Part shown: positions 1,411 through 62,255 of the stretch, piece after piece
Layout: the number at the start of each line of letters is the position of its first letter
How positions within the stretch are numbered: position 1 is the stretch's first letter
NCBI RefSeq assembly: GCF_008326305.1
Contig: NZ_BIXY01000027.1
Coordinates: 1 to 64,000, forward strand
DNA from: Dictyobacter arantiisoli
GTDB lineage: Bacteria; Chloroflexota; Ktedonobacteria; Ktedonobacterales; Ktedonobacteraceae
DNA: 64,000 nucleotides
Direction: 5' to 3'
Translations under genes and position numbers: made by a program
Notes under the pieces: generated by a model
Database searches by the model: none
Told to the model about the DNA's origin: nothing
What the model saw: the letters and a program-made list of their open reading frames with translations, nothing else

Positions 1411-2928
1411 TTATGCCTCGGGCTGTAGCAGGTCGAGGTTCAATTCTGGATAGAGCGGATATTTTTCCAGCAGGGCCTGAACGCGTTGCTGAGCACTGAC
1501 CAGGATCTCATTATCCAGGATATATTTGGTGAGGCTTTGTTTGCCACTGGCTGTTTTAGCCGGTGTGGTATTGGAGAGCACGAGTTTGATGATACTGGCA
1601 ATCTCGCGCATCTCTGCCGCACCCATACCCAATGTTGTCATCGCAGGGGTACCGATGCGCAGGCCACTGGTATACCAGGGACCATTGGCGTCAAATGGCA
1701 GGGAATTACGGTTCAAGGTGAACTTGCATTCGCGCAGCACCGACTCCGCCTGGCGACCTGTCAGGCCAAAGGTTTTGGCGACATTGATTAGCAGAAGATG
1801 ATTATCCGATCCGCCTGTCAGTACATCCAGTCCCTCTTCGACGCAAGCTGCGGCCAAGGCCTGTGAGTTCTCAACGATCTTTTGCGCATAGTCATGGAAC
1901 TCGGGGCGTAACGCCTCACGGAAAGCAATCGCTTTGGCGGCCATTACGTGTGGCAAGGGACCACCCAGCAACTCGGGACAGCCTTTATTGACCCATTCGG
2001 CGAACTCTTCTTTACACAGCACTAGACCGCCGCGGGGTCCGCGCAAGGTCTTGTGTGTAGTCGAGGTAACGACATGAGCATGGGGAACGGGATCATACTC
2101 GCCAGTGAAGACCTTACCAGCGACCAATCCCGCGAAGTGGGCCATATCCACCATTAACACGGCTCCGACCTCATCGGCCATTTCGCGCATCTTCGCGAAG
2201 TTCAGTTTGCGGGGATAGGCACTATAGCCGGCCAGCAGAATCAGAGGACGCACCTCATGTAATTGCTTGCGCAACTGATCCAGATCAATCAAGCCGCTCT
2301 CGCGATCCACGCTATAGGTATAGACATCAAACAGATGGCTGGAAATATTGTGGCGATAGCCGTGGGTCAAATGGCCGCCGGAGTAATAATCCAGGGAGAG
2401 CAGGCGCTGATTATGGACGACCTCGCGTACCTTATTCCAATCCTCACGACTTAATTTAGAGGGATCTTCATAGCCCAGCTCGCTAAGAATTGGCTTCTGA
2501 GCTTTCGCTGAGAGGATAGCGAGATAAGCGACCAGATTGGCGTCCGCGCCTGAATGGGGCTGGACATAGGCATAATCCGCACCAAACAGTTCCTGAGCTA
2601 ATTGCGCCGCTTCGCTTTCGATAGCATCGACGTTATCACAGCCTGCATAGAAGCGATGATTGGGATAGCCCTCGGCATACTTATCGGTCAGCAGGTTGCC
2701 CATCGCCAGTTGTGTTGTTAATGAGCTATAGTTCTCGCTGGCAATCATCTTCAAATTGCTGCGCTGATCGCGTAACTCCTGCACGATATTGGCCGCAATC
2801 GAGGGGGAAACCGTCTGAATCTGATCGAGCGAGGCATAAAAAGCCGCCGCCGCAGATTGGGGGGCCTGTCCATTGAGATTGTTTAAGTAGCGAACCAGGA
2901 AGGATTGATCGGTGGCTGTTGTTGTCAT
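1411..2928 (-). CDS. glyA: Serine hydroxymethyltransferase, extended form
   Basis: PLP enzyme interconverting serine plus tetrahydrofolate with glycine plus 5,10-methylene-tetrahydrofolate. The PLP lysine is in [14 protein letters not shown]; other family motifs are [23 protein letters not shown] and VDMAHFAGL. At 505 aa it is roughly 80-90 residues longer than the usual bacterial enzyme. Much of the excess is an N-terminal extension and an insertion after the substrate-binding [14 protein letters not shown] region (around residues 150-200). Similar long forms are known in some other bacterial phyla. The start is ATG 2928, behind AAGGAG; the longer open frame to 3294 runs through the riboswitch and promoter and is not coding. 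It supplies one-carbon units used by the downstream purH. Confidence 0.95.
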
Positions 2929-2974
2929 CGTCGCTAACTCCTTATACTGTCGATATTTCACAACGAAATGAAAC

Positions 2975-3062
2975 ATCCAGCCCAGGCGAACGACTGTTAT
3001 AGGGTTAGATCCTCCCGGCTTCCTCGTGGTACTCCACTTTATCGCCAGTCGCCAGGAGAACA
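2975..3062 (-). promoter_or_regulatory. ZTP (pfl motif) riboswitch aptamer upstream of glyA-purH
   Basis: On the minus strand a 10-bp outer stem pairs the run at 3051-3060 with 3010-3019. Inside it are GACUGGCG (3043-3050), a GUGG-AGUA-CCAC hairpin (3025-3036) and GAGGAAGCC. About 20 nt further on is the conserved UCGCCUGGGC (2980-2989), whose CGCC can form the pseudoknot with UGGCG. This order and these motifs match the ZTP/pfl class, which senses Z nucleotides (AICAR derivatives) and is typically found before purH, glyA and folD. The location is therefore exactly as expected. A small hairpin (UUUCA/UGAAA, about 2957-2974) lies between the aptamer and the glyA ribosome site and may be part of the expression platform. 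Confidence 0.88.
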
Positions 3063-3109
3063 TAGTCTCTTCTTTTTTACGGGAATCACTGTTATGACTC
3101 ACCGCTATA

Positions 3110-3137
3110 AGTATAACAGCCCTGCCAACAGAGTCAA
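3110..3137 (-). promoter_or_regulatory. Sigma-70-like promoter for glyA-purH
   Basis: Minus strand: TTGACT (3137-3132), a 16-nt spacer, then TATACT (3115-3110). The predicted start, near 3103, is about 40 nt upstream of the ZTP aptamer. Confidence 0.7.
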
Positions 3138-3140
3138 GTA

Positions 3141-3440
3141 GCAGCCACCCTTCATGGGTGGAGTCAAACCGATCCTCTCGCCCCAACGCTCTGGAATGTT
3201 CCCTGATAGGGATGTTGGGGTGGGAATGGCCTACGGGCGTGGGAATCGTACGAGGAACGGGAATGCGCACCTCCGTTGCGACCTCGGCACGCACCTCCGT
3301 TTTTCGTCATGCTCACCAATTCAGGTCTGTTCATCTATTATCTGCGTTCGGGTTTTTCGCGTTGTTACACCATCCATTCTCGTCCTTGAAGCGGTATTGC
3401 CTGTGAAGGGTAGATGGCAATGATGCTTATAAAACGGGCA
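3141..3440. other. Non-coding stretch with dispersed repeat
   Basis: No convincing gene. The interval between the glyA promoter and the next minus-strand gene contains the repeat annotated at 3237-3310. Short open frames here have no ribosome site or recognisable product. Confidence 0.6.
3237..3310 (-). repeat. Dispersed short repeat, family 2, copy 1
   Basis: Read on the minus strand it contains ACGGAGGTGCG twice, around GCCGAGGTCGCA, followed by CCTCGTACGAT. The plus strand at 62834-62914 carries a diverged copy with the same order: AGGTGCGGCCCGACGTCGCA, ACGGAGGTCCG, then CTCGTACGAT. Both copies lie between genes. Confidence 0.75.
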
Positions 3441-9239: not shown

Positions 9240-11237
9240 TTATGAGGCATCCAAGGAATATGGTGGTTGAAGTTGAGGCGGTAAAGGATAGGATGGCTGT
9301 GGCAGGGCCAGTTCATGTTCTTCTAGTGGTCCGCCCGCACGTACCTCAGTCATACCTGCTGTAAGGGAGGGCGCTTCGCAGGCATGTTCTTCGTTCATTG
9401 GCTGATTGAAGAGCGATTCAAAGACTGGACCCTCAAGCGTCTCCTCTTTGATCAGGCGTTCGCTGATCATGATCAGGCGATTCTTGTTATTCATCAGAAT
9501 ATTGTATGCTTTATCAAAGCCCTCCTGAATGATGCGGCGCACCTCTTCATCGATTTCACGGGCGGTCTGCTCGCTATAGTTACGCTGCTCGCCAAAGTCG
9601 CGTCCCAGGAAGACAAGCTCTTCCTTATGTCCCAGTGCCATTGGGCCAATACGTTGGCTCATGCCGTATTCAGTGACCATAGAGCGCGCAATCTTGGTGA
9701 CGCGTTCAATATCATTTGACGCTCCAGTGGTCACTTCGCCAAAGGTGATCAGTTCTGCAACATGTCCACCCAGCGCGTAGGCGAGCATATCCTCAAATTG
9801 AGGCTTACTCCACAGATAGCGATCTTCCGTTGGCAGCAGCATCGTGAAGCCACCAGCCTGTCCACGTGCGACAATTGAGACCTTGTGAACGGGATCAGTA
9901 TTACGCAATAAGCGGGCGACCAGGGCATGTCCCACCTCATGATAGGCGGTAATGGATTTTTCGCGCTCGCTAATGATCCGGCTTTTGCGTGCAGGTCCGG
10001 CCACGACACGATCAATGGCCTCTTCCATCTCACTCATCCCAATATTCTTTTTGTTGCGTCTGGCGGCCAGAATTGCAGCTTCATTTAAGAGATTGGCAAC
10101 ATCGGCACCTGAGAAGCCGGGTGTTTGTTTGGCGAGTACCTCCAACGAGATATCAGATGCTAAAGGCTTGCCCTTGGCATGAACCTCGAGAATTGCGATG
10201 CGCCCACGAATATCGGGACGATCCAATACGACCTGCCGATCAAAGCGGCCTGGACGCAACAGGGCGGGATCAAGCACGTCAGGGCGATTGGTGGCGGCGA
10301 TCACAATCACATTGGTATTGGTATCAAAGCCATCCATCTCGACCAGTATTTGATTTAAGGTTTGCTCACGCTCATCGTGGGAACCGCCCAGGCCAGCGCC
10401 GCGTTGGCGCCCAACGGCATCAATCTCATCGACAAAGACGATACAGGGGCTATTGCGTTTGGCTTGCTCAAAGAGATCGCGTACGCGGCTGGCCCCGACA
10501 CCAACAAACATCTCTACAAACTCGGAGCCACTGATGCTAAAGAAGGGGACACCGGCTTCGCCCGCCACTGCGCGCGAAATCAGCGTCTTACCCGTTCCTG
10601 GAGGGCCAACTAATAACAAACCTTTAGGGATACGAGCTCCCAGGGCGGCGAATTTGTCTGGATACTTGAGAAACTCTACAATTTCCTGCAGTTCTTGTTT
10701 GGCTTCCTCCACGCCTGCGACATCGGCAAAGGTGACAGACGGCTTATTGCCCATAAAGATACGTGCCCGGCTTTTCCCAAACGATAATGCCTGATTATTG
10801 CTGCCCTGTGTTTGCCGCAACATGAAGAAGAGCAAGAGGGCCAGTAAGATAAAGGGAATCCAGCCAGCCAGCGTGCCCAACCAGCCCCAGATGGGACTTG
10901 TGGGTTCAAATTGAAGTTTCACAACCTGTGGATTGGTATAATCGATGCTATTATCTTTTAGCACCTGGGTAACATTAAATGTGCTGTCAACAGTTGCTGA
11001 TTCTTGAGTTGCGCTGGTCGTTTGCCCGCGCGCCAGCGTCAATGTTCCACCAGCTACGGTTAGCGCGTCAAGCTGACCCTTCGCAATATCTGTCTTGAGA
11101 TTGCTCATAAGGGTTGAGACCGAAACAGATTTCACATATGTCTGTGGTCGAACAATAATGAGAATGATCAGAACGGCAATTAGCAAGATCAGGAGCCAGA
11201 AAAAGCTCGTTCTGAGCCGTTTTCCATTATAAGACAT
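9240..11237 (-). CDS. ftsH: ATP-dependent zinc metalloprotease FtsH (copy 1)
   Basis: A 665-aa membrane-bound AAA+ protease for quality control of membrane and soluble proteins. It has a TM helix at about 11-29, an extracytoplasmic domain, and a second TM at about 120-140. The AAA domain carries GPPGTGKT (211-218), a Walker B ending VDEIDAVG and an SRH of the [20 protein letters not shown] type. The peptidase domain has zinc motif HEVGH (433-437). The C-terminal tail beyond residue 620 is proline-rich and poorly conserved. It appears monocistronic. A second ftsH at 60.4 kb shares the architecture but differs in the periplasmic region and tail. Confidence 0.96.
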
Positions 11238-48710: not shown

Positions 48711-51338
48711 TCAGGCCAGGCCAAAGAGGCGGGCAAGCCAGAGGCGGAAACCGCGTAAGGGTGGCTTTTCTTCCCGGTCAGCTGCCATCTCAATCAGGCG
48801 TTGACGTCCGCGATCCTGACGCGCGCGCTCTGTTTCCGACGCTTCTTGAATCGCGTAGCGTTTGCTCTGTTCTTCAATGGCGGCGGCAAAGTGTTCGGGC
48901 AGGATCTTAAAGCGTTTAGGGACTGACTGCTCGGCTTCAACAGCTGTTCCATCTGTATTGGTGGCCGATGTGGTACCTGCTGAACTGCTGTCGCCCGTCT
49001 CGGTCACCTGCGTAATCTGGACCTGTCCCGGCAGTAAGCGTGGGGCGATCCATTCGCGTAAGGCTAGCAGAGCGGCGCGGCGGCAGATGGCTTCAATATC
49101 TGCTCCACTGCGTCCCGGTGTCAGTTTGGCTAATTCCTCGGCGGTGACTTCGGGGGCCAGTGGTCGGTCGTGAAGATGGACGGCAAAGATTTCTCGACGT
49201 CCATCTTCATCTGGATATTGCAGTTCGACGCTGAGATCAAAGCGGCCTGGACGCAATAAAGCGGGATCGATCATATCGAGACGGTTGGTGGCTGCCAGGA
49301 CAATCACGCCCTCACGGCCTTCAATACCATCCATCTCGGTCAGCAATTGAGCAATCACGCGATCTCCCACATTGCCATCGTTGCCCTGTCCTCGGCGCGG
49401 GGCCAGGGCATCCAACTCATCGAAGAAGACAATACACGGTGCGGCCTGTTTGGCATGCCGGAAGATTTCTCGAATCCCTTTTTCTGATTCCCCTACCCAT
49501 TTTGAGAGGAGCTCTGGTCCCTTAATGGAGATAAAGCTGGCTTCGCATTGATTGGCTAAAGCACGTGCGAGCAGGGTTTTACCTGATCCGGGAGGGCCGG
49601 AGAGAATGATGCCGCGTGGTGGTTCTACCCTGGCGTTAGAGTAGATCTCTGGATAGCGCAATGGCCATTCAACGCTCTCTGTGAGCAGGTTTTTCGTATA
49701 TTCAAGCCCCCCGATATCATCCCATGAGGTATCGCTGACTTCAACGTAGACTTCGCGCGTCGTCGAGGGTTCAATTTCGCGTAAGGCGGCCTGGAAATCT
49801 GCCATGGTGATATTCAGGTTGACCAGCGTTTCATAGGGAATATAGCCGCGCTGATAGTCGATATGTGGGAGGACGCGCCGTAAAGCGATCATGGCGGCTT
49901 CACGGCACAGGGATTCCAGGTCCGCACCGACAAAGCCAGGCGTGAGTTGGGCCAGACGTTGAATATCCACATCGTTGGCGAGCGCGGCATCCCGGCTGTG
50001 AATCTGGAGGATCTCCATGCGTCCATGCGTATCGGGCACGCGCAGGCCAATTTCACGATCAAAGCGTCCTGGACGGCGTATGGCTGGATCAAGCGCGTTG
50101 GGCTGATTGGTGGCTCCGATAATGACAACCTGTCCACGGGACTCCATTCCATCCATCAGCGCGAGCAGTTGTCCTACGATGCGCCGCTCGACTTCACCGC
50201 CGGTCTCGGCTCGTTTGGGGGCCAGGGCGTCGATTTCGTCGATAAAGATCACGCTGGGGGCGCGCTTTTGAGCTTCCTGGAAGACCGAGCGTAACCGCGA
50301 CTCGCTTTCACCATAGAATTTATTGATGATTTCAGGCCCGTTGATGATAAAAAAGGAAGCATTGGTCTCGGTGGCGACGATGCGAGCGATCAATGTTTTA
50401 CCGGTTCCAGGAGGTCCATAGAGTAGGACACCTTTGGGCGGTTCAACTCCCAGGCGATCAAAGACGGCTGGATATTTGAGTGGCAGTTCAAGCATCTCGC
50501 GGATACGTTGAATTTCTTTGCCCAATCCGCCGACATCTTCATAGCCCACCCTGCGAGGTGCGCCATTATTGCTTGAACTGCGCGATTGTGAGCGTATAAT
50601 CGTTCCGGGTTGTACCAGGACCGCTTCGACATCACCATTAGCGGTCGGCGAGATGGCAATTGGCAGTTCGCCGGTCTTCTGTCGGTTCTGCAAGGTATAA
50701 GCCGGTGTGGCGGGATTGGTCCCAATGATCAGGAATTCGCGTGGTGCGGCTCCGGGTGTACCGACGCGCAACAGATCACCTATTGTGACCGGAAGTCCAA
50801 CCAGATAGCGGGCGATATATTGCAGGTCGCTCTCCTGAATCGGTGTGCCGCTACTGAGTGGGAGCAGGGTAACCTTCTCAGCCGTTTGGACATTGGCTTT
50901 GTGGACGGTAACATACTCTCCCAGTCCTGAGGCGCTATTCTGGCGCACCTGGCTATCCATCTGGATTGATTGCTGGTTGCGATCAACCAGGGCATTAGGA
51001 ATGACCTTGGCGGCGGTGGTGCGTGCACCCTCGATCATGATGATATCGCCAGCCTGACATCCTAACTTCGCCATATCGTTGGGGTCCATACGGGCTACGC
51101 CGCGTCCAACCTGGAAGCCTTCTACCACAACCAGTTTCAGGTGGTCGGTTGTGGGCGTCGTTGTTTCAGTGATTGTATTTTGTGTGGTCGTCTCTGTATC
51201 CATATCATCGTCATCTGCTGTTAGTTTGGTTGTGATATGTTTGGATGCGCCTGTGGGCAGTTTATCAGTAATCTGCGCCGTGGTATTGGAGCTAGTATTA
51301 GTGCCTGGTAGATTGGATGGTACGCGTGGCTCCTCCAT
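48711..51338 (-). CDS. Cdc48/p97-type double AAA+ ATPase
   Basis: An 875-aa unfoldase of the archaeal VAT / eukaryotic p97 group. Order: a low-complexity Thr/Asp-rich N-terminal tail (1-65); a Cdc48 N-domain (about 66-250, with VGRGVARMDPNDMAKLGC); and D1 with GPPGTGKT (308-315), IFIDEIDAL and NQPNALDPAIRRPGRFDRE. D2 follows with GPPGSGKT (581-588), VFFDELDAL and [18 protein letters not shown]. The C-terminal extension ends FRLWLARLFGLA, a hydrophobic tip unlike the archaeal HbYX tail. It should extract or unfold proteins. Bacterial members are uncommon but known. A partner protease is not adjacent. Confidence 0.95.
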   Translation of the reverse strand: MEEPRVPSNLPGTNTSSNTTAQITDKLPTGASKHITTKLTADDDDMDTETTTQNTITETTTPTTDHLKLVVVEGFQVGRGVARMDPNDMAKLGCQAGDIIMIEGARTTAAKVIPNALVDRNQQSIQMDSQVRQNSASGLGEYVTVHKANVQTAEKVTLLPLSSGTPIQESDLQYIARYLVGLPVTIGDLLRVGTPGAAPREFLIIGTNPATPAYTLQNRQKTGELPIAISPTANGDVEAVLVQPGTIIRSQSRSSSNNGAPRRVGYEDVGGLGKEIQRIREMLELPLKYPAVFDRLGVEPPKGVLLYGPPGTGKTLIARIVATETNASFFIINGPEIINKFYGESESRLRSVFQEAQKRAPSVIFIDEIDALAPKRAETGGEVERRIVGQLLALMDGMESRGQVVIIGATNQPNALDPAIRRPGRFDREIGLRVPDTHGRMEILQIHSRDAALANDVDIQRLAQLTPGFVGADLESLCREAAMIALRRVLPHIDYQRGYIPYETLVNLNITMADFQAALREIEPSTTREVYVEVSDTSWDDIGGLEYTKNLLTESVEWPLRYPEIYSNARVEPPRGIILSGPPGSGKTLLARALANQCEASFISIKGPELLSKWVGESEKGIREIFRHAKQAAPCIVFFDELDALAPRRGQGNDGNVGDRVIAQLLTEMDGIEGREGVIVLAATNRLDMIDPALLRPGRFDLSVELQYPDEDGRREIFAVHLHDRPLAPEVTAEELAKLTPGRSGADIEAICRRAALLALREWIAPRLLPGQVQITQVTETGDSSSAGTTSATNTDGTAVEAEQSVPKRFKILPEHFAAAIEEQSKRYAIQEASETERARQDRGRQRLIEMAADREEKPPLRGFRLWLARLFGLA

Positions 51339-52060: not shown

Positions 52061-53254
52061 ATGAACGCTGAGCAGAAAGTCCAGAAGGTCAGCGGCAGCG
52101 TGACGCTCTTTGACCAGACGCGCACCTATGATGCAGTAGGCAATGTCAGTACGGTGAATACAACGCTGCCAACAGGCACCGATAATCAGATGTACTGCTA
52201 TGATGAGCTGAATCGCACGACCTGGGCTGGTTCAACAGGCACCGCTCCCTGTGGGACGCTCACGGCAGGCACACTTACTGCCGCAAACTACCAACAGAGC
52301 TATGTCTTCGACACGCTCAATCGGCTCACCACTGGCCCGAGTGGGAGTGAGACCTATGGTGATCCGAATCACCTGAATGCCGTGACTAGCGCGCCAGGGT
52401 ATACCGCGAGCTATGATCCAGCTGGCAATATGACCACGCGTAACGGCCAACCAATCGTGTATGATGCCTTGAGTCGTCAGACGAACTGGCAGAGCACGGC
52501 GACGAGTCCAACGCAAACCGCCACGTATGCCTATAATGGCGAAGGTGAGCGGGTCCAACAAGTGGTGGCCGATAGTGGTACCACGACCACCACCAACTAT
52601 ATCGGCCCGAACGAGGAGGTGAGCACCACCGGCTCGACCACAACAACGACCAAGTACTACAATGCTGGCGTGGCATCTGTAACCAATGTGAATGGGACGC
52701 TGTCCTATTTGGTCAGAGATTTCCTCGGCAGCACCACTATAGCATTGGATAATACTGGCAATGTCACCGCGACAACGTTGTATGCACCCTATGGAATGAC
52801 GCGCTACAGCACGGGAACGATGCCAACGACGCGAAGCTACACGAGCATGGCAAGTGACCCCAGTGGGTTATTCTATGACCATGCGCGCTACTATGATGAT
52901 GGGGTAGGCCAGTTCACATCGGCAGACACAGTGCAAGGGCCAAACCGCTATGGGTATGTTGCCGGAAATCCTGAAACATACACCGATCCGACGGGACACC
53001 TAACCTTTGCTGGGTCACATATCAATTGGGCGCGTCGGTGGCCACCCGATTGGGATGGCTGGATTAACATCAATTTCAACAATAATGACATTAATTTTTT
53101 ATGGGATTTTATTTGGAGTTCGCCTGGTGTCATTCTTGGGTTGATCTGTTCAGCAGCTACTGTAGGATTTGGATCTTTCTTATGTGGTCTTCTTGGCGTC
53201 GCTGTGGGGCTGGTAGGTGTTTTGGTTGGACGTAACTACTCAGGTACCCTATAG
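52061..53254 (+). CDS. 5'-truncated RHS/YD-repeat protein with novel C-terminal tip
   Basis: A 397-aa frame. It has YD repeats (TRTYDAVGNVST, CYDELNRTTW, SYDPAGNMTT, YAYNGEGERV) and the RHS core (LVRDFLGSTTIALD, GLFYDHARYYDDGVGQFTSAD, GNPETYTDPTGH). A variable 85-residue tip with two hydrophobic segments (about 350-390) follows. Full RHS proteins are usually well over 1000 aa with a secretion signal; here the upstream part is missing and ATG 52061 has no spaced SD. RHS tips are often toxins in contact-dependent competition. This one has no nuclease motif and could act on membranes. It is probably a displaced cassette rather than a working gene. Confidence 0.8.
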   Translation: MNAEQKVQKVSGSVTLFDQTRTYDAVGNVSTVNTTLPTGTDNQMYCYDELNRTTWAGSTGTAPCGTLTAGTLTAANYQQSYVFDTLNRLTTGPSGSETYGDPNHLNAVTSAPGYTASYDPAGNMTTRNGQPIVYDALSRQTNWQSTATSPTQTATYAYNGEGERVQQVVADSGTTTTTNYIGPNEEVSTTGSTTTTTKYYNAGVASVTNVNGTLSYLVRDFLGSTTIALDNTGNVTATTLYAPYGMTRYSTGTMPTTRSYTSMASDPSGLFYDHARYYDDGVGQFTSADTVQGPNRYGYVAGNPETYTDPTGHLTFAGSHINWARRWPPDWDGWININFNNNDINFLWDFIWSSPGVILGLICSAATVGFGSFLCGLLGVAVGLVGVLVGRNYSGTL

Positions 53255-54484: not shown

Positions 54485-55636
54485 TTAACGTCTGGCGTTC
54501 CAGAGGGTGGTGCGGGCGTCAGCACTGGAGGCATGACCTGCGTTGACGACGGTGCGCCGTAAGAAGTAGCCTCCCATCAGGACGAGCAGGGAGACAAGCA
54601 GTCCCATGCCGCCGCGTTTGGTCGGCTGTCCCTGACTGGTATGTTGTCGGGGTTGCTTTGATCCTGCGATGAGCATGAGCGTTTGGAGCAGCCAGGGAAG
54701 GATCAGGCCGCCACCAAACATCATGGTCCAGAAGGTCGGCCCCTGTTCTTTGGGTTCGCTGCCTACCAGCGCCTTTGCGGTGCGGCCCGCTGTGCGTAGA
54801 TAGGTGAGCAGGCAAGTGATCTCAATCAACATATTGGCCCATTCGATCTTTTCCAGCTTATACAATGTCTTCGCAGGTGCTCCTATGATACGCAGGATGA
54901 CCGAGATCAGGGCGGTGCTGGTCGAGAAGGCCGATGAGACAAACAGCGCTCCCAGCATCTTGCTGCGCGACCAGACGGGAATACTGGTCACTGTGAGCAG
55001 TACGCCAGTATAGCCTCCCAGAAAGACTCCGAAGATGCTGCCAGGTATGGCAAGTAGCTTCAATGGGATGCGTGAGAGCAAGCGTGTTCCCCACCATCTG
55101 CCCAATAGTCCATCGTGTGATGCCTGTACCATAGCGGTGATGCCGCTAAAGCCTGAGAAGGTTAACAATCCCCAGACGCCCATCGACATGGGTGACTTGA
55201 ATTTAAAGACGCGCAACATGTTCAAGAATTTTTCGGGACGACCCAGATCTTTGATCAAGAGCGGTGGACAGGGGAGCAGGGCCAGCAGGGAGGCGTAGTA
55301 GCCCACCCGGGCGACGATGCGATCCTCTTTTTTGCCAAAGAGCGTGGCGATACTGGCTAAGACATAGCTGCCCGCCGCCAGTCCGCCCATAAAGAAGTAC
55401 CAGATGATTTCCCAACTCCAGAGCGGCGCCTTGACAGCAGGATAATCAAAATAGGTCTTCTCTTTGAGCTCGCTGATGGAGTCAGGTGTATAGCCAGTGG
55501 TCAGGCTGGCGAGCCTCTCCAGCAACGTTGATTGATGTGGGATTGGCTCTATCGCTGATGTGTGACTATGTGTTTTATTGATGAACGCTTCATCGGTTGG
55601 CGCTCGTTCTGTTTTTTCATGCTGTGTATCTCGCAT
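54485..55636 (-). CDS. NrfD-family membrane subunit of formate dehydrogenase
   Basis: A 383-aa membrane subunit with about nine hydrophobic helices and a polar N-terminus (1-75). NrfD-type motifs are PLWSWEIIWYFFMGGLAAGSY, KDLGRPEKFLNMLRV and FKSPMSMGVWGL. The family exchanges electrons between an Fe-S subunit and quinone without haem. It starts 17 nt after the Fe-S subunit and is last in the operon. ATG 55636 follows GGAGAGGAAA. Confidence 0.9.
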   Translation of the reverse strand: MRDTQHEKTERAPTDEAFINKTHSHTSAIEPIPHQSTLLERLASLTTGYTPDSISELKEKTYFDYPAVKAPLWSWEIIWYFFMGGLAAGSYVLASIATLFGKKEDRIVARVGYYASLLALLPCPPLLIKDLGRPEKFLNMLRVFKFKSPMSMGVWGLLTFSGFSGITAMVQASHDGLLGRWWGTRLLSRIPLKLLAIPGSIFGVFLGGYTGVLLTVTSIPVWSRSKMLGALFVSSAFSTSTALISVILRIIGAPAKTLYKLEKIEWANMLIEITCLLTYLRTAGRTAKALVGSEPKEQGPTFWTMMFGGGLILPWLLQTLMLIAGSKQPRQHTSQGQPTKRGGMGLLVSLLVLMGGYFLRRTVVNAGHASSADARTTLWNARR

Positions 55637-55653: not shown

Positions 55654-56661
55654 CTATTCTTGTTTAAAGAAGAATGTCCCGATCAGACCCATCACGGCGG
55701 CGGTGACGATGACGCCGAGTGAAGTCGGCAAGACATGATTGCTGGGACGCGCTGGATTGCTGGGTAGGTTGTAGGTTTCTGGCTCATCGAGGAGCAGGAA
55801 GAATGAATTTAATCCCCCCTCCAGAATTTTATCATCCGCTCCATACAAGCGTGCATCCGTCAGACCGCGTTCCTGGAGAAATCCCAGCCGCTCTTGCGCA
55901 TCTCTTTTGAGCTGTTCTACCTCGCCAAACTGGATCGAATCAGTGGGACAGGCTTTGGCGCAGGCTGGTTTCATCCCATCTTTCAAACGGTCATAGCAGA
56001 GGGTACATTTATGCGCCTGCCCATCGCCTTCAGAATCGCGGGCGATGACATCAAAGGGACAGGCCACTACGCAATAGCCGCAGCCATTACAGATATCCTG
56101 TTGCACGTAGACCGTATCGAATTCGGTATGGATGATGGCTCCTGTGGGACAGGCTTCCTGGCAGGGAGCATTGGCGCAGTGTTTGCAGACATCGCTACGC
56201 ATCAGCCAGCGATCAGTGCTGAAGAATGGCAGGGCTGTACCGGTAGGTGTCCCGGCCAATTCCGGCAATGCTGAGAGATCCATGCCCATTTGGGGTACCG
56301 GTGTATCCATTTCGAATAGTGGTAGCTTCAGCACTTTCTCATCTGATGCGTTGACATGTGGGATACGGCGCTCGATCTGCTCGATAAACTGGACATGACG
56401 CCAGGTTGTAGCGCCCAGGCTTTGGGTATTATCATAGCTGGTTCCCGTCCACTCAGGTGTGGTGGCGGGCAACTGGTTCCATTGTTTACAGGCAATCTCG
56501 CAGGCTTTACAGCCGATGCAGAGACTGGTATCCGTGAAGAAGCCCATCTTTGGCTGCTCGGGGAGCGGTTTTTCCTTCTTGAAGGGAGCCAGCAGTTGTG
56601 TTAACTGCTGAACTCTCTCCGTGATGGGCGTCGCCGAGACTTGCCCATTATGATCTGACAT
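55654..56661 (-). CDS. Formate dehydrogenase iron-sulfur (beta) subunit
   Basis: A 335-aa ferredoxin-like subunit with four Cys clusters: CIGCKACEIACKQWN, CKHCANAPCQEACP, CNGCGYCVVACPFD and CTLC...CAKACP. They should hold four [4Fe-4S] clusters passing electrons from the catalytic subunit to NrfD. A C-terminal hydrophobic helix (about 308-330, GVIVTAAVMGLIGTFFF) anchors it, as in FdnH. No Tat signal. It begins 2 nt after the catalytic-subunit stop, with AAGGAAGGAA inside that gene's end. Confidence 0.93.
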   Translation of the reverse strand: MSDHNGQVSATPITERVQQLTQLLAPFKKEKPLPEQPKMGFFTDTSLCIGCKACEIACKQWNQLPATTPEWTGTSYDNTQSLGATTWRHVQFIEQIERRIPHVNASDEKVLKLPLFEMDTPVPQMGMDLSALPELAGTPTGTALPFFSTDRWLMRSDVCKHCANAPCQEACPTGAIIHTEFDTVYVQQDICNGCGYCVVACPFDVIARDSEGDGQAHKCTLCYDRLKDGMKPACAKACPTDSIQFGEVEQLKRDAQERLGFLQERGLTDARLYGADDKILEGGLNSFFLLLDEPETYNLPSNPARPSNHVLPTSLGVIVTAAVMGLIGTFFFKQE

Positions 56662-56663
56662 TG

Positions 56664-59600
56664 TCAGTGTTCCTTCCTTCCTACGTTGTGCTCGCTTGAG
56701 GAAAGGCGCCCGGGGCGTATATCGCAGAGAAACGCCTTGGCTTCCTCGATACTGACATTCGGTTCAAGCACTGAATGCGTCAGGTCATTGGTGATGCTGC
56801 CTGTACTCTTGCCCTGGAAACCCCAGTGGAACGGCAGTCCGATCTGATGAACGATGCGTCCACGAATGCGTAGTGGGCGTAAGCGCCGTGTCACCATCGC
56901 ACGCGCCTCGATCTCACCCCGAGGGGTTCGTAGTACCATCCATCCTTTATCCACAATATTGCGCTCTTGTGCGAGTTCGGGACTGATCTCAGCGAATAAG
57001 GATGGCTGGAGCGCGTTCAGCCAGGGCATCCAGCGTGTCATCGGTCCACTGACATGATGTTCGGTGAGCCGATAGGTGGTGATGACAAAAGGATAATTTG
57101 GATCTCCCAATTCGATTAAAACATTGTCTTTGCGGTCGCGATGATACTTGGCCGCTGGATTGCTTTGCTGTTTGTACAACGCGTTCTGAACCGGCGACTC
57201 GATGGCCTCGTAATGGGCCGGGAGTGGACCATCCTTGAGACCTGTTGGTGCATAGAGCCAGGCGCGTCCATCGGGCTTCATAAAGAAGGGATCGGTACCA
57301 GCAATTGCATCCATCCCGGTTGAGTCGGGGGCGGGCCGATAATCGGGAGCCTTATCCGGTGGAAAATCGGGAATATCGTTGCCGACCCATTTGTGCTGTT
57401 CAGCATCCCACCAGATGTGCTTTTTGCGTTCTGACCATGGCTTGCCAGCGGGATCTGCTGAGGCGCGATTATAGAGAATACGCCGGTTGGCGGGCCAGGC
57501 GAAGCCCCAATCCAGATTCATCTTGCCATCACTGATCCGCGACGCGGCCCGATTCCTGCCCGGTTCTGGATAGACACCACTATAGATCCAGGAGCCACAG
57601 GCGGTACTCCCATCGGTCTTTAGCGCGGTAAAGGTTGGTACATGTGGCGCGTTATGCAAGTCATACTGTGTCACCTGCCCATCTGAATTGGTTTGGGTCA
57701 CATAGTAGCCATTCACCTCTTTCAGCACCAACTGGGCATCTGGCTCATCGGTGAGATGCGAGTCTGGTTGAGGCTCCTCCATCTCATAATCCCAGGTCAA
57801 ATTGAGCAAGCCCTGGTCCCGGGGGGCGGTACTGTCAGCATAAAGCTTTTTGAGCCGCTTGCCAAGTTGATAGATCAGCCAGAGATCCGAGCGCGCATCC
57901 CCGGGAGGATCGATAGCTTTATCACGCCATTGCAGCAAGCGTTGGGTATTGGTAAAGGTACCCTCTTTCTCCGTTGAGGCCGCGGCTGGCATGAAGAAGA
58001 CCTCGGTTTTAAGCGTTGCCGGATCTACCTTTTCCCCATTGGTCCCTTTATACCAGAAGGCCGCCGACTCAACCTCATAGAGATCCCCAACTACCATCCA
58101 ATCGAGTTGAGCCAGGGCTTTGCGTTGCATTCGCGCATTGGTACTCCCCGCAGCAGGATTCTGGCCCAGCAGGAAGTAGCCTTTGACTTTGCCATCCAGC
58201 ATGGCGTAACTGGTATTGATATGGGAATGATCACCGGTAATCTTAGGAATCCAGTGATAGCCCCAATCGTTGTCAGCGGTCGCAGCGTCTCCATACCAGG
58301 CTTTGAGTAGACTGATGATATAGGATGGCACATTGGACCACCAGCCGAGTTTTTGGCCGGTGACATCAATATATTCTTGCAGGGTTTGCTGTGTATTTTT
58401 ATGTACATGCTTATCCTGCCGTGCGCCCCAGGTGGTTGAGGTTGGCTCATGCTGAGATTCAGGTTTTGTACTGAGCATTTCAGCGGGCTGGGGCATATAG
58501 CCCGCAAGCAGATCATAGAGCGTCGGCACATCGGTTGAACCCTGGATCGAGGCATGGCCGCGTAAGGCCAGCACGCCGCCGCCTGGCCGTCCCATATTGC
58601 CCAATAGGAGTTGCATAATCGAGCCTGCGCGAATGATCTGTACACCCTTGGATTGCTGTGTCCAACCTACGGCATAACACAGTGTACTCGTACGCTCGCG
58701 TCCCGAGTTCTCGACCAGCGCCTGGACGACCTGTAACCATTCTTCACGCGATACTCCGCACTCAGATTCTACCAGTTCTGGTGTATAGCGGGCGAAATGG
58801 CGTTTCATAATCTGCAACACACACTGTGGATTTTGCAGGGTCGGATCGGTTAAGGGCTTATCATACTCATCGCGTTGATAATCCCAACTTTCCTGATTCG
58901 AGTACGTCCCGCTTGCGGGATCGAAGCCAGAGAAGAGGCCATTCAGGTCCTCTGTATCCTGGAAATCCTCGCGGATTAGCATCGGCGCGTTGGTATAATT
59001 CACGACATAGTCATGGAAGTATACTTGATTTTCAAGCAGATAGTGAATAATCGCGCCCAGAAAGACGATATCTGAGCCTGCGCGTGTAGACACATAGAGA
59101 TTCGACACTGCGGATGTGCGTGAGAAATGTGGATCGACATGGATGATCTTTGCTCCACGATCTTTTGCTTTCATCACATTCGCAAAGCCAACTGGATGGG
59201 CCTCCGCCATATTACTACCCATAATCAGGATGCAGTCGCTATTGACCAGATCCTGAGGAAAAGATGTGGCCCCGCCACGTCCTAGTGTTGTACCCAGACC
59301 GGGCACTGTAGAACTGTGTCATATCCGGGCCTGGTTCTCGATCGATACGATGCCTAAGCCAGCGTTAAAGAGCTTCTTGATCAGATAATTCTCTTCAATA
59401 TCCAGTGTTGCGCCACCCAGCGAGGCAATGCCCTGGGTCTGATTGATCACACGACCATCGTCGAGGCGTTCGACAAAGGTCTCATCGCGTGTCTTTTTCA
59501 CACGTTGCGCAATTTGATCCAGTGCCCATTCCGAGGATTTGACTTCCCAATGATCGCTATAAGGAGCGCGATAAAGCACCTGAGTCGTACGACTGGCATT

Positions 59601-59885
59601 AACTGTATACTGGAAGGTCGCTGATCCTTTTGGACAGAGCGTGCCATGGTTAATAAAGCTATCGGGATTGCCCTCGATATCAATAACCTTCCCATTCTTC
59701 ACATAGACATTCAGCCCGCAGCCAACAGCGCAATAGGGGCAGACGCTATGGACTACCTTTGCATCGCGGATACGTGGAGCCTTCTCGCGACTCTCCTTAC
59801 TGAATGGTTGAACGCGCGAACCAATCTCCATTAAATTTGAGAGCATTGGCAATGCGCGCACTGAGCGATTTGCTGGTTCATGCAT
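56664..59885 (-). CDS. Selenocysteine-containing formate dehydrogenase catalytic subunit
   Basis: A 1073-aa molybdopterin enzyme oxidising formate to CO2. The frame is interrupted once, by UGA at 59321-59319 (residue 189), in IENQARI-U-HSSTVPG. This is the exact site of the Sec ligand of Mo/W in FdnG/FdhF. The [4Fe-4S] Cys are C49, C52, C56 and C84. MGSNMAEAHPVGF, AGSIMQLLLGNMGRPGGG and a C-terminal molybdopterin-binding domain follow. A bacterial SECIS lies just after the UGA. Read as two genes, neither half would be complete. There is no twin-arginine signal, so a cytoplasm-facing complex is likely. ATG 59885 has AGAGG upstream. Confidence 0.95.
59290..59321 (-). promoter_or_regulatory. SECIS element with in-frame UGA (Sec) codon
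   Basis: UGA at 59321-59319 is followed after 18 nt by the loop GGUCU (59300-59296), closed by stem GUGCCC (59306-59301) / GGGUAC (59295-59290). Loop sequence and spacing equal those of E. coli fdhF, the standard SelB binding site. Confidence 0.93.
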
Positions 59886-60407
59886 AGCTAAAACCTCTTC
59901 GTACAGCTTTTATCTCAACAATAAGTTATGGCTTTTTCTCTTATACTATCTCTATATTGTACCATGTCGATGGGCAAGAAGATGCACGTATCCTCCAAAC
60001 GAGCTATCAACCCACTCAAATTCGCATCCCACCATTTCTAACAGACTGACTCTATCCTGTTTGACAATCCAGGTTTTCATACCTCGATAGTAGTGTTTTA
60101 TTATTCTATGTATACTAAAAAATAGCCTCCATCTTTTTACCTGCATTATAATGCTGAGTTTGTAAACTCAAAATCGGATGAACCACCGTGGCATACTACG
60201 TACCTTAGTACTAATCTCTAAGCCTTCTAAGCTTTCTAAGCATATACTTATCTTGCTAAACAAATTCTCATACGCTATACTAGCTTCAAGAGACAGAATG
60301 AGTAAGAAAAACACACTGCAATATGCATTGATATAAGTATGGTAGGTATGTCTTTTATGGCATACATAAGTTAGCTAGAAAATTATAGAAGGGTCTACTG
60401 TTATCGC
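59886..60407. other. Divergent regulatory region
   Basis: About 520 nt, AT-rich, between the formate dehydrogenase operon and ftsH-thpR. It includes the ftsH promoter (60253-60281) and three tandem CTAAGC-type units near 60220-60240. A short minus-strand frame (59952-60146) has a poor ribosome site and is not called. Confidence 0.5.
60253..60281 (+). promoter_or_regulatory. Sigma-70-like promoter for ftsH-thpR
   Basis: TTGCTA (60253-60258), 17-nt spacer, TATACT (60276-60281), about 125 nt before the ftsH start. Confidence 0.6.
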
Positions 60408-62255
60408 ATGGAAACGCCTCAAAAAGGAAACCGGGAAACACCAAACTCCGATACACAAAATTCAACTCCGAAAGTAACGAAAAAGCGCAGCTTTCTTGCG
60501 CGTTACAGTCTTCCTATTGCGCTCATTATAGTGGGAGTGCTGCTACTGGGAATCGTCGGAGCTCGTTGGGTTGCCCTTTCGCAGGGTGCCGCTGCCGTTC
60601 AGGAGCGGCCCATTAGTGATGTCCTCAATATGGCAGATCGTCACCAATTAAAATCAGCCATTCTCAATGGTAACGACGTCACTGCTACCAGCGGAAACGG
60701 TTTACAGTATCATGCCGTCAAGGAAGATGGGCAGTCGGTAACAGAAATATTTCGTCATGATGGCGTTCAGGTTGGCATTGATACCAATCAACCGGCTCAG
60801 TGGGTACAGGGTGGAGTCGGTTTAGTGCTGGTTCTCCTGGTGCTTGGTTTGTCTTTTGTATTTTTGCGCCGTAATGGCCTGGGGGGACAGGCGATGCCTT
60901 TTGCGCGTTCAAAGGCCAAACGTTTTTCTGAGTCCCGTCCTACCGTCCTCTTTAAGGATGTGGCTGGCGTGGAAGAGGCCAAGACTGAGCTAGAGGAAAT
61001 TGTTGAATTTTTGAAGCGTCCCGAGCGCTTTACTTCGATGGGCGCGCGCACTCCGAAGGGTGTATTGCTGGTAGGCGCGCCTGGTACTGGTAAGACCTTG
61101 ATTTCACGCGCTGTGGCCGGTGAGGCTGGCGTGGCATTCTATAGTGTGAGTGGCTCTGAATTTGTAGAGATGTTTGTCGGTATTGGTGCGGCCCGTGTGC
61201 GTGATCTGTTTAAAGAAGCCAAATCCCATGCCCCCTGCATCATCTTTATTGACGAGATCGATGCGGTTGGTCGTCAGCGTACCAATTCTGGCATGGGTGG
61301 TAACGATGAGCGTGAGCAGACCCTGAACCAGTTGCTGGTTGAGATGGATGGTTTTGATAAGAACTCGAATGTCGTGGTGATTGCTGCCACGAACCGTCCC
61401 GATGTCCTTGATCCAGCTCTGTTGCGTCCCGGTCGCTTCGATCGGCGCGTGATGCTGGACGCTCCCGATATTCGTGGGCGTCAGGCAATTTTGGAGGTCC
61501 ATGCCGCTGACAAGCCGATGGCTGAAGGTATCACCATGGCGGATCTGGCTCGTCAAACGGCTGGCTTCTCGGGTGCGGATCTGGCAAATCTATTGAATGA
61601 GGCGGCCCTGCTGGCTGCTCGCAAAGGTTTCACTGAAATCGGCAAAGTCGAGTTAGAAGAGGCGATCCTGCGAGTGATGGCTGGTCCTGAGCGCAAGAGC
61701 CGTATTATGACCGATGCTGAAAAAGCTATCATTGCCTATCACGAGGTTGGACACGCGATTGTGATGCGTTCGGTACCTGGTGCTGATCCTGTGCATAAAG
61801 TATCGGCGATTGCGCGTGGTATGGCTCTGGGTATCACTGTTCAGGCCCCCGCTGAGGACCGCTATCTGCTCCGTCGTTCCGAATTGCTGGCCAAACTGGC
61901 TGGCGCAATGGGTGGCCGGGCGGCTGAAGAGATCACCTTTGGCGATGTAACGACCGGTGCCAGCCAGGATATCGAATATGTCACCAATATCGCACGCCGC
62001 ATGGTCTGTGAGTTTGGTATGTCCCCACTTGGCAACATTGCTTTAAAGGCTGATGCAGAAGGCAATAGTTTCGTGGGTGCCGAACTGGCAGCTAAAATTG
62101 ATAAAGAGGTCTCAATCCTGATCGATCAAGCCTACGAGAAAGCATTAACGGTACTGCGCGAAAAGCAGGATCGTTTGATCTTGATTGCTGAGCATCTGAT
62201 CCAGGTTGAAACCATTGATGGAGCGGAATTAGATCGCATGTTGTTTGCCGCATGA
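60408..62255 (+). CDS. ftsH: ATP-dependent zinc metalloprotease FtsH (copy 2)
   Basis: A 615-aa FtsH paralogue. A polar N-terminus precedes TM1 (about 33-52). A short extracytoplasmic domain and TM2 (about 134-153) follow, then AAA with GAPGTGKT (223-230; Ala replaces the more usual Pro), FIDEIDAVG and HEVGHA (445-449). It lacks the Pro-rich tail of the 9.2-11.2 kb copy. The two may serve different substrates or hetero-assemble. Its stop overlaps thpR by four bases. Confidence 0.95.

Follow-up and report, generated by a model that had tools for sequence, protein, structure and literature searches.

The formate dehydrogenase (FDH) FdhA is the most widespread selenoprotein of bacteria and often the only one (PMC13188914). 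In the Chloroflexi, selenoproteins were counted in 2006 (PMC1794560), the selenocysteine (Sec)-decoding trait was noted in 2015 (PMC5322559), and UGA-Sec formate dehydrogenases have been published for Dehalogenimonas alkenigignens (DEALK_19115; PMC4918011) and for RBG-2 (PMC3971608). The latter two belong to anaerobic lineages, the Dehalococcoidia and the sediment genome RBG-2, respectively, whereas the locus described here comes from the Ktedonobacterales. Concerning the Ktedonobacteria, formate dehydrogenase is named in two metabolic surveys, neither of which mentions selenium, and our literature search, which was of incomplete coverage and is weak evidence of absence, found no description of a published Sec-FDH.

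In Escherichia coli, FdnG and FdoG are members of the TIGR01553 family, carry the motif NQAR-[IV]-U-H, with the loop of the fdnG SECIS element at an offset of 18 nt, and are encoded next to the gene of an FeS beta subunit. All of these features are shared by a gene of Dictyobacter arantiisoli situated in the 64-kb stretch of DNA that we analysed (the window). A counterpart is present in another phylum, in the actinobacterium Corynebacterium senegalense (locus L035), whose protein is 49% identical. There the UGA occupies the corresponding position, and fdhB and NrfD-like genes follow in an unchanged order. Its hairpin, GGUUCCC-AGUUU-GGGAUCC, differs from the one described below in containing one U-U mismatch and another loop.

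A formate dehydrogenase gene with an in-frame UGA

Positions 56664-59885 of the minus strand (fdhA, fdnG-like) translate as one frame of 1073 residues followed by a terminal stop, with one internal stop only, a TGA at residue 189 (59319-59321, minus strand). Plain ORF calling breaks the gene into two pieces, 59319-59885 (188 aa) and 56664-59306 (880 aa, with a GTG start). The original prediction had joined two adjacent frames into a single 1073-aa FDH across one UGA. The joining and the length were borne out by the translation, but the two pieces share one and the same reading frame. The ATG at 59885 is preceded, at a distance of 8 nt, by AGAGG (59894-59898, minus strand), probably the ribosome-binding site. 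The residues surrounding the UGA, SIENQARI-U-HSSTVPGLG, align with DNQARV-U-HGPTVASLA of E. coli FdnG and CCARV-U-HGPSVAGLH of FdhF, and the UGA matches the position of E. coli U196/U140. The in-frame UGA is therefore aligned with the Sec or Cys of its homologues, as had been proposed and as is expected of a selenoprotein gene.

The protein was then compared with known families. Residue 189 was entered as Cys in these searches, and the profile matches are therefore in themselves no test of Sec. FdhA scored 1025 bits against TIGR01553 (formate dehydrogenase-N alpha; cut-off 814.2) over residues 31-1056, and 1471 bits against NF041513 (actinobacterial formate dehydrogenase; cut-off 1400); these NCBIfam models extend across the UGA site, and the earlier expectation of a broken gene in automatic annotation is less well supported than the rest of the prediction. 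The Pfam domains of Mo-bisPGD enzymes (PF04879, PF00384 and PF01568) were all found above their cut-offs, and the best solved relatives, 1h0h, 6sdr and 1kqf, are Sec- or W/Mo-formate dehydrogenases. FdhA has the 4Fe-4S and molybdopterin domains that characterize FDH-N alpha subunits, as well as a Sec/Cys position preceding His at the catalytic site (UGA here, Cys in Vogesella).

Two further genes follow on the same strand. fdhB (55654-56661) encodes a 4Fe-4S electron-transfer subunit of 335 aa with Fer4_11 and other Fer4 domains, which scored 173 bits against TIGR01582 (FDH-beta), under the cut-off of 335. The next gene (54485-55636) encodes an NrfD/PsrC-type membrane subunit of 383 aa (Pfam NrfD, 109 bits), likely a quinone-reactive anchor. 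The order fdhA-fdhB-nrfD is kept in relatives for which enough flanking sequence was available. The complex differs from the periplasmic FDH-N of E. coli, which has a twin-arginine leader and the cytochrome b FdnI; here the partner is of the NrfD type, and no twin-arginine (RR) motif was visible in the N-terminus of FdhA, a point in which the Allochromatium homologue differs. Because this leader is absent, FdhA probably faces the cytoplasm.

An order-wide search with the FdhA protein covered 47 Ktedonobacterales genomes. Wherever a close match covered the site and its codon was read out, this was TGA, never TAA or TAG and never a Cys codon. Homologues about 40% identical from Vogesella (Betaproteobacteria) have TGT, that is, Cys. 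Identity with the protein of Dictyobacter kobayashii was 82.4% before the UGA and 81.9% after it. A true premature stop, due to a pseudogene or to a sequencing error in the assembly, would be in keeping with the two pieces that ORF calling yields, but dozens of relatives, each sequenced independently, have this UGA too, and conservation is as strong over the 880 residues beyond it as over the 188 that precede it, leaving this explanation next to no probability. That the UGA is kept across Ktedonobacterales relatives excludes both a pseudogene private to this genome and an error in sequencing, the latter including the correction of UGA to a Cys codon which the original prediction had named as a possible refutation.

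The hairpin downstream of the UGA

The RNA following the UGA reads CAC AGU UCU ACA GUG CCC GGU CUG GGU ACA. After a spacer of 12 nt, it can form the hairpin GUGCCC-GGUCU-GGGUAC (59290-59306, minus strand; loop at 59296-59300), the upper hairpin of a bacterial SECIS, with a stem of 6 bp including one G-U pair and a GGUCU loop that begins 18 nt past the UGA. Comparison of the sequences confirmed the proposed likeness to E. coli fdhF, which has the same GGUCU loop at 18 nt; the loop of E. coli fdnG, also at 18 nt, is AGUCU. The lower stem of fdhF is not evident here, and the minimum free energy (MFE) fold consists of the 6-bp upper stem alone.

This hairpin was examined by folding and with covariance models, as had been suggested for a SECIS model. 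Folding of the 42 nt gave exactly this hairpin as the MFE structure (−9.6 kcal/mol). We rejected the folding energy itself as evidence for a SECIS, as it was no better than that of shuffled sequences (z 0.02). In a permissive Rfam search of 141 bases, SECIS_3 aligned end to end with 59266-59324 (E 0.0011) at 24.5 bits against a gathering score of 63, so that the fold and the end-to-end alignment agreed with the prediction but the gathering score was not reached; a search of the whole window at the gathering threshold returned no SECIS. Counting either strand, a single UGA in the window is followed at 14-22 nt by a GGTCT loop borne on a stem of at least 5 bp; in shuffled sequence there are about 0.1 such cases per strand. 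R1, a covariance model for this hairpin, consists mostly of sequence and would miss other SECIS types; it recovered the fdhA site with 64 bits from the whole genome of D. arantiisoli. A second R1 match (contig C74, E 4.8) lies in a frame similar to a type I restriction enzyme and was dismissed as chance.

Selection on the hairpin was examined with 21 full-length orthologues of the family, in which 272 codons specify invariant residues of four- to six-fold degenerate amino acids. Across the 21 orthologues, synonymous variation is absent from just three of the 272: CCC, GGU and CUG at +6, +7 and +8 after the UGA. These never-varying codons are adjacent and form the upper stem and loop of the hairpin. 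The codons flanking them in the stem do vary, but only in ways that preserve pairing (GUG or GUA opposite GGU or GGC). Among 21 sequences chosen for diversity, 99.2% of stem cells were paired, and two-sided changes were seen in 10 cells, at two pairs, one of these being the change of the loop-closing pair from C-G to G-C in paralogues. None of 500 shuffles reached the covariation score, and all slid controls scored far lower. The hairpin is under selection as an RNA structure within the coding sequence, as is expected of the SECIS of a bacterial selenoprotein gene.

These results also bear on the possibility that the UGA is a real stop and that two polypeptides are made, the second from a nearby GTG (59306). 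The downstream ORF does begin with an in-frame GTG, 12 nt past the UGA. However, this codon is GTA in nine of 21 orthologues, relatives never have TAA or TAG in place of the UGA, the split would cut the active-site motif, and neither the hairpin nor the sel genes would be accounted for. We regard separate translation of the two pieces as exceedingly unlikely.

Sec machinery and the distribution of the trait

The original prediction had called for a search of the genome for selA, selB, selD and tRNA-Sec. All four were present above their curated cut-offs in the assembly, which comprises 7.2 Mb in 256 contigs and is 97% complete. The tRNA-Sec (selC) scored 67.8 bits and was also recognized by ARAGORN as tRNA-SeC with the anticodon tca, and SelB, SelA and SelD scored 370, 571 and 384 bits against cut-offs of 242, 268 and 125, respectively. 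SelD is of the Cys form, judged by SCAGCAAK. An EF-Tu-like gene near selA (contig C39) was considered as a second SelB and rejected, being an ordinary EF-Tu.

One further explanation is that the UGA stands for a different amino acid, through suppression with Trp or Cys or through reassignment in this lineage. Apart from the Cys at this site in Vogesella, we found no support for it. There is a dedicated tRNA-Sec (UCA anticodon) along with the full sel set, UGA is an ordinary stop elsewhere, including the stop at the end of fdhA itself (56664), and the hairpin is under selection; the chance of such a reading is minimal.

We conclude, with a probability of about 0.97, that the locus is an intact fdhA-fdhB-nrfD operon for a quinone-linked, membrane-anchored FDH, and that its catalytic subunit is a selenoprotein in which the UGA is read as Sec. 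In the proposed mechanism, SelA and SelD would make Sec-tRNA(Sec) on the selC tRNA, and SelB would carry it and bind the hairpin at 59290-59306. The UGA at 59319-59321 would then be decoded as Sec and the ribosome would continue to the stop at 56664. By analogy with E. coli FDH-N, Sec189 would be a ligand of the Mo/W-bisPGD centre. The enzyme would oxidize formate to CO2; the electrons would go to the FeS subunit, from there to the membrane subunit of the NrfD type and then probably to the menaquinone pool. What looked like a broken gene belongs to a well-known kind and is an ordinary example of it; the split made by naive calling is now corrected.

Among the 47 Ktedonobacterales genomes, selB was over the cut-off in 41 and tRNA-Sec in 40, the two occurring nearly always together. 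Two genomes of genus g18 (G006 and G007) have neither selB nor tRNA-Sec nor any close Sec-FDH match, an apparent loss of the entire Sec trait. Five others (G001, G002, G005, G012 and G018) have selB, and all but G001 also tRNA-Sec, with no close Sec-FDH match; other selenoproteins are therefore expected in these five. In the phylum, selB was over the cut-off in 234 of 301 sampled genomes, and the Sec trait is thus common rather than exceptional. Together with the published Chloroflexi Sec-FDHs (PMC4918011, PMC3971608), this count weakens the earlier statement that selenoproteins are sparsely recorded in the phylum. What is new may at most be the family-wide record of a Sec-FDH in the Ktedonobacteraceae; the enzyme is conserved across that family, and the underlying biology is textbook.

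Members of the Ktedonobacteraceae are usually seen as aerobic heterotrophs of soils and caves and as oxidizers of trace gases. We see even odds that a Sec-dependent, cytoplasm-facing, NrfD-anchored formate:quinone oxidoreductase is an ancestral and near-universal trait of the family, several of whose members have a second Sec-FDH paralogue. If this is so, formate oxidation and a selenium requirement would be a general, unnoticed part of the energy metabolism of the family.

Several observations were made in the course of these searches. The second Sec-FDH paralogue, about 60% identical, was seen in several Ktedonobacteraceae (L063-L066 and L069-L073), with the UGA at the same site and the loop-closing pair of the hairpin flipped (CCG-GGUCU-CGG). 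A genome of family f4 (G014), which has no close match to the FdhA of the window, encodes an FdhF/NuoG-like formate dehydrogenase (L083; contig C115, minus strand) with an in-frame UGA in SCNRT-U-HAPSVAGL. In G038 (C1:547200-547285), G039, G041 and G004, the tRNA-Sec model gave second matches that barely exceeded the cut-off (about 50 bits, 86-89 nt); these could be long-variable-arm or unusual tRNAs.

Other features in the window

A ZMP/ZTP riboswitch was found at 2973-3062 (minus strand), within ORF 1411-3294, in a 5' part that has been extended too far. The ORF codes for a serine hydroxymethyltransferase-like protein, and its true start is probably downstream of the riboswitch. Judging from their translations, the window also encodes two FtsH-like AAA proteases (9240-11237, minus strand, and 60408-62255, plus strand) and a two-domain CDC48/VAT-like AAA ATPase (48711-51338). 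The end of ORF 52061-53254 (plus strand) resembles the core of RHS/YD-repeat proteins, and the ORF may be a piece of some larger gene of that type.
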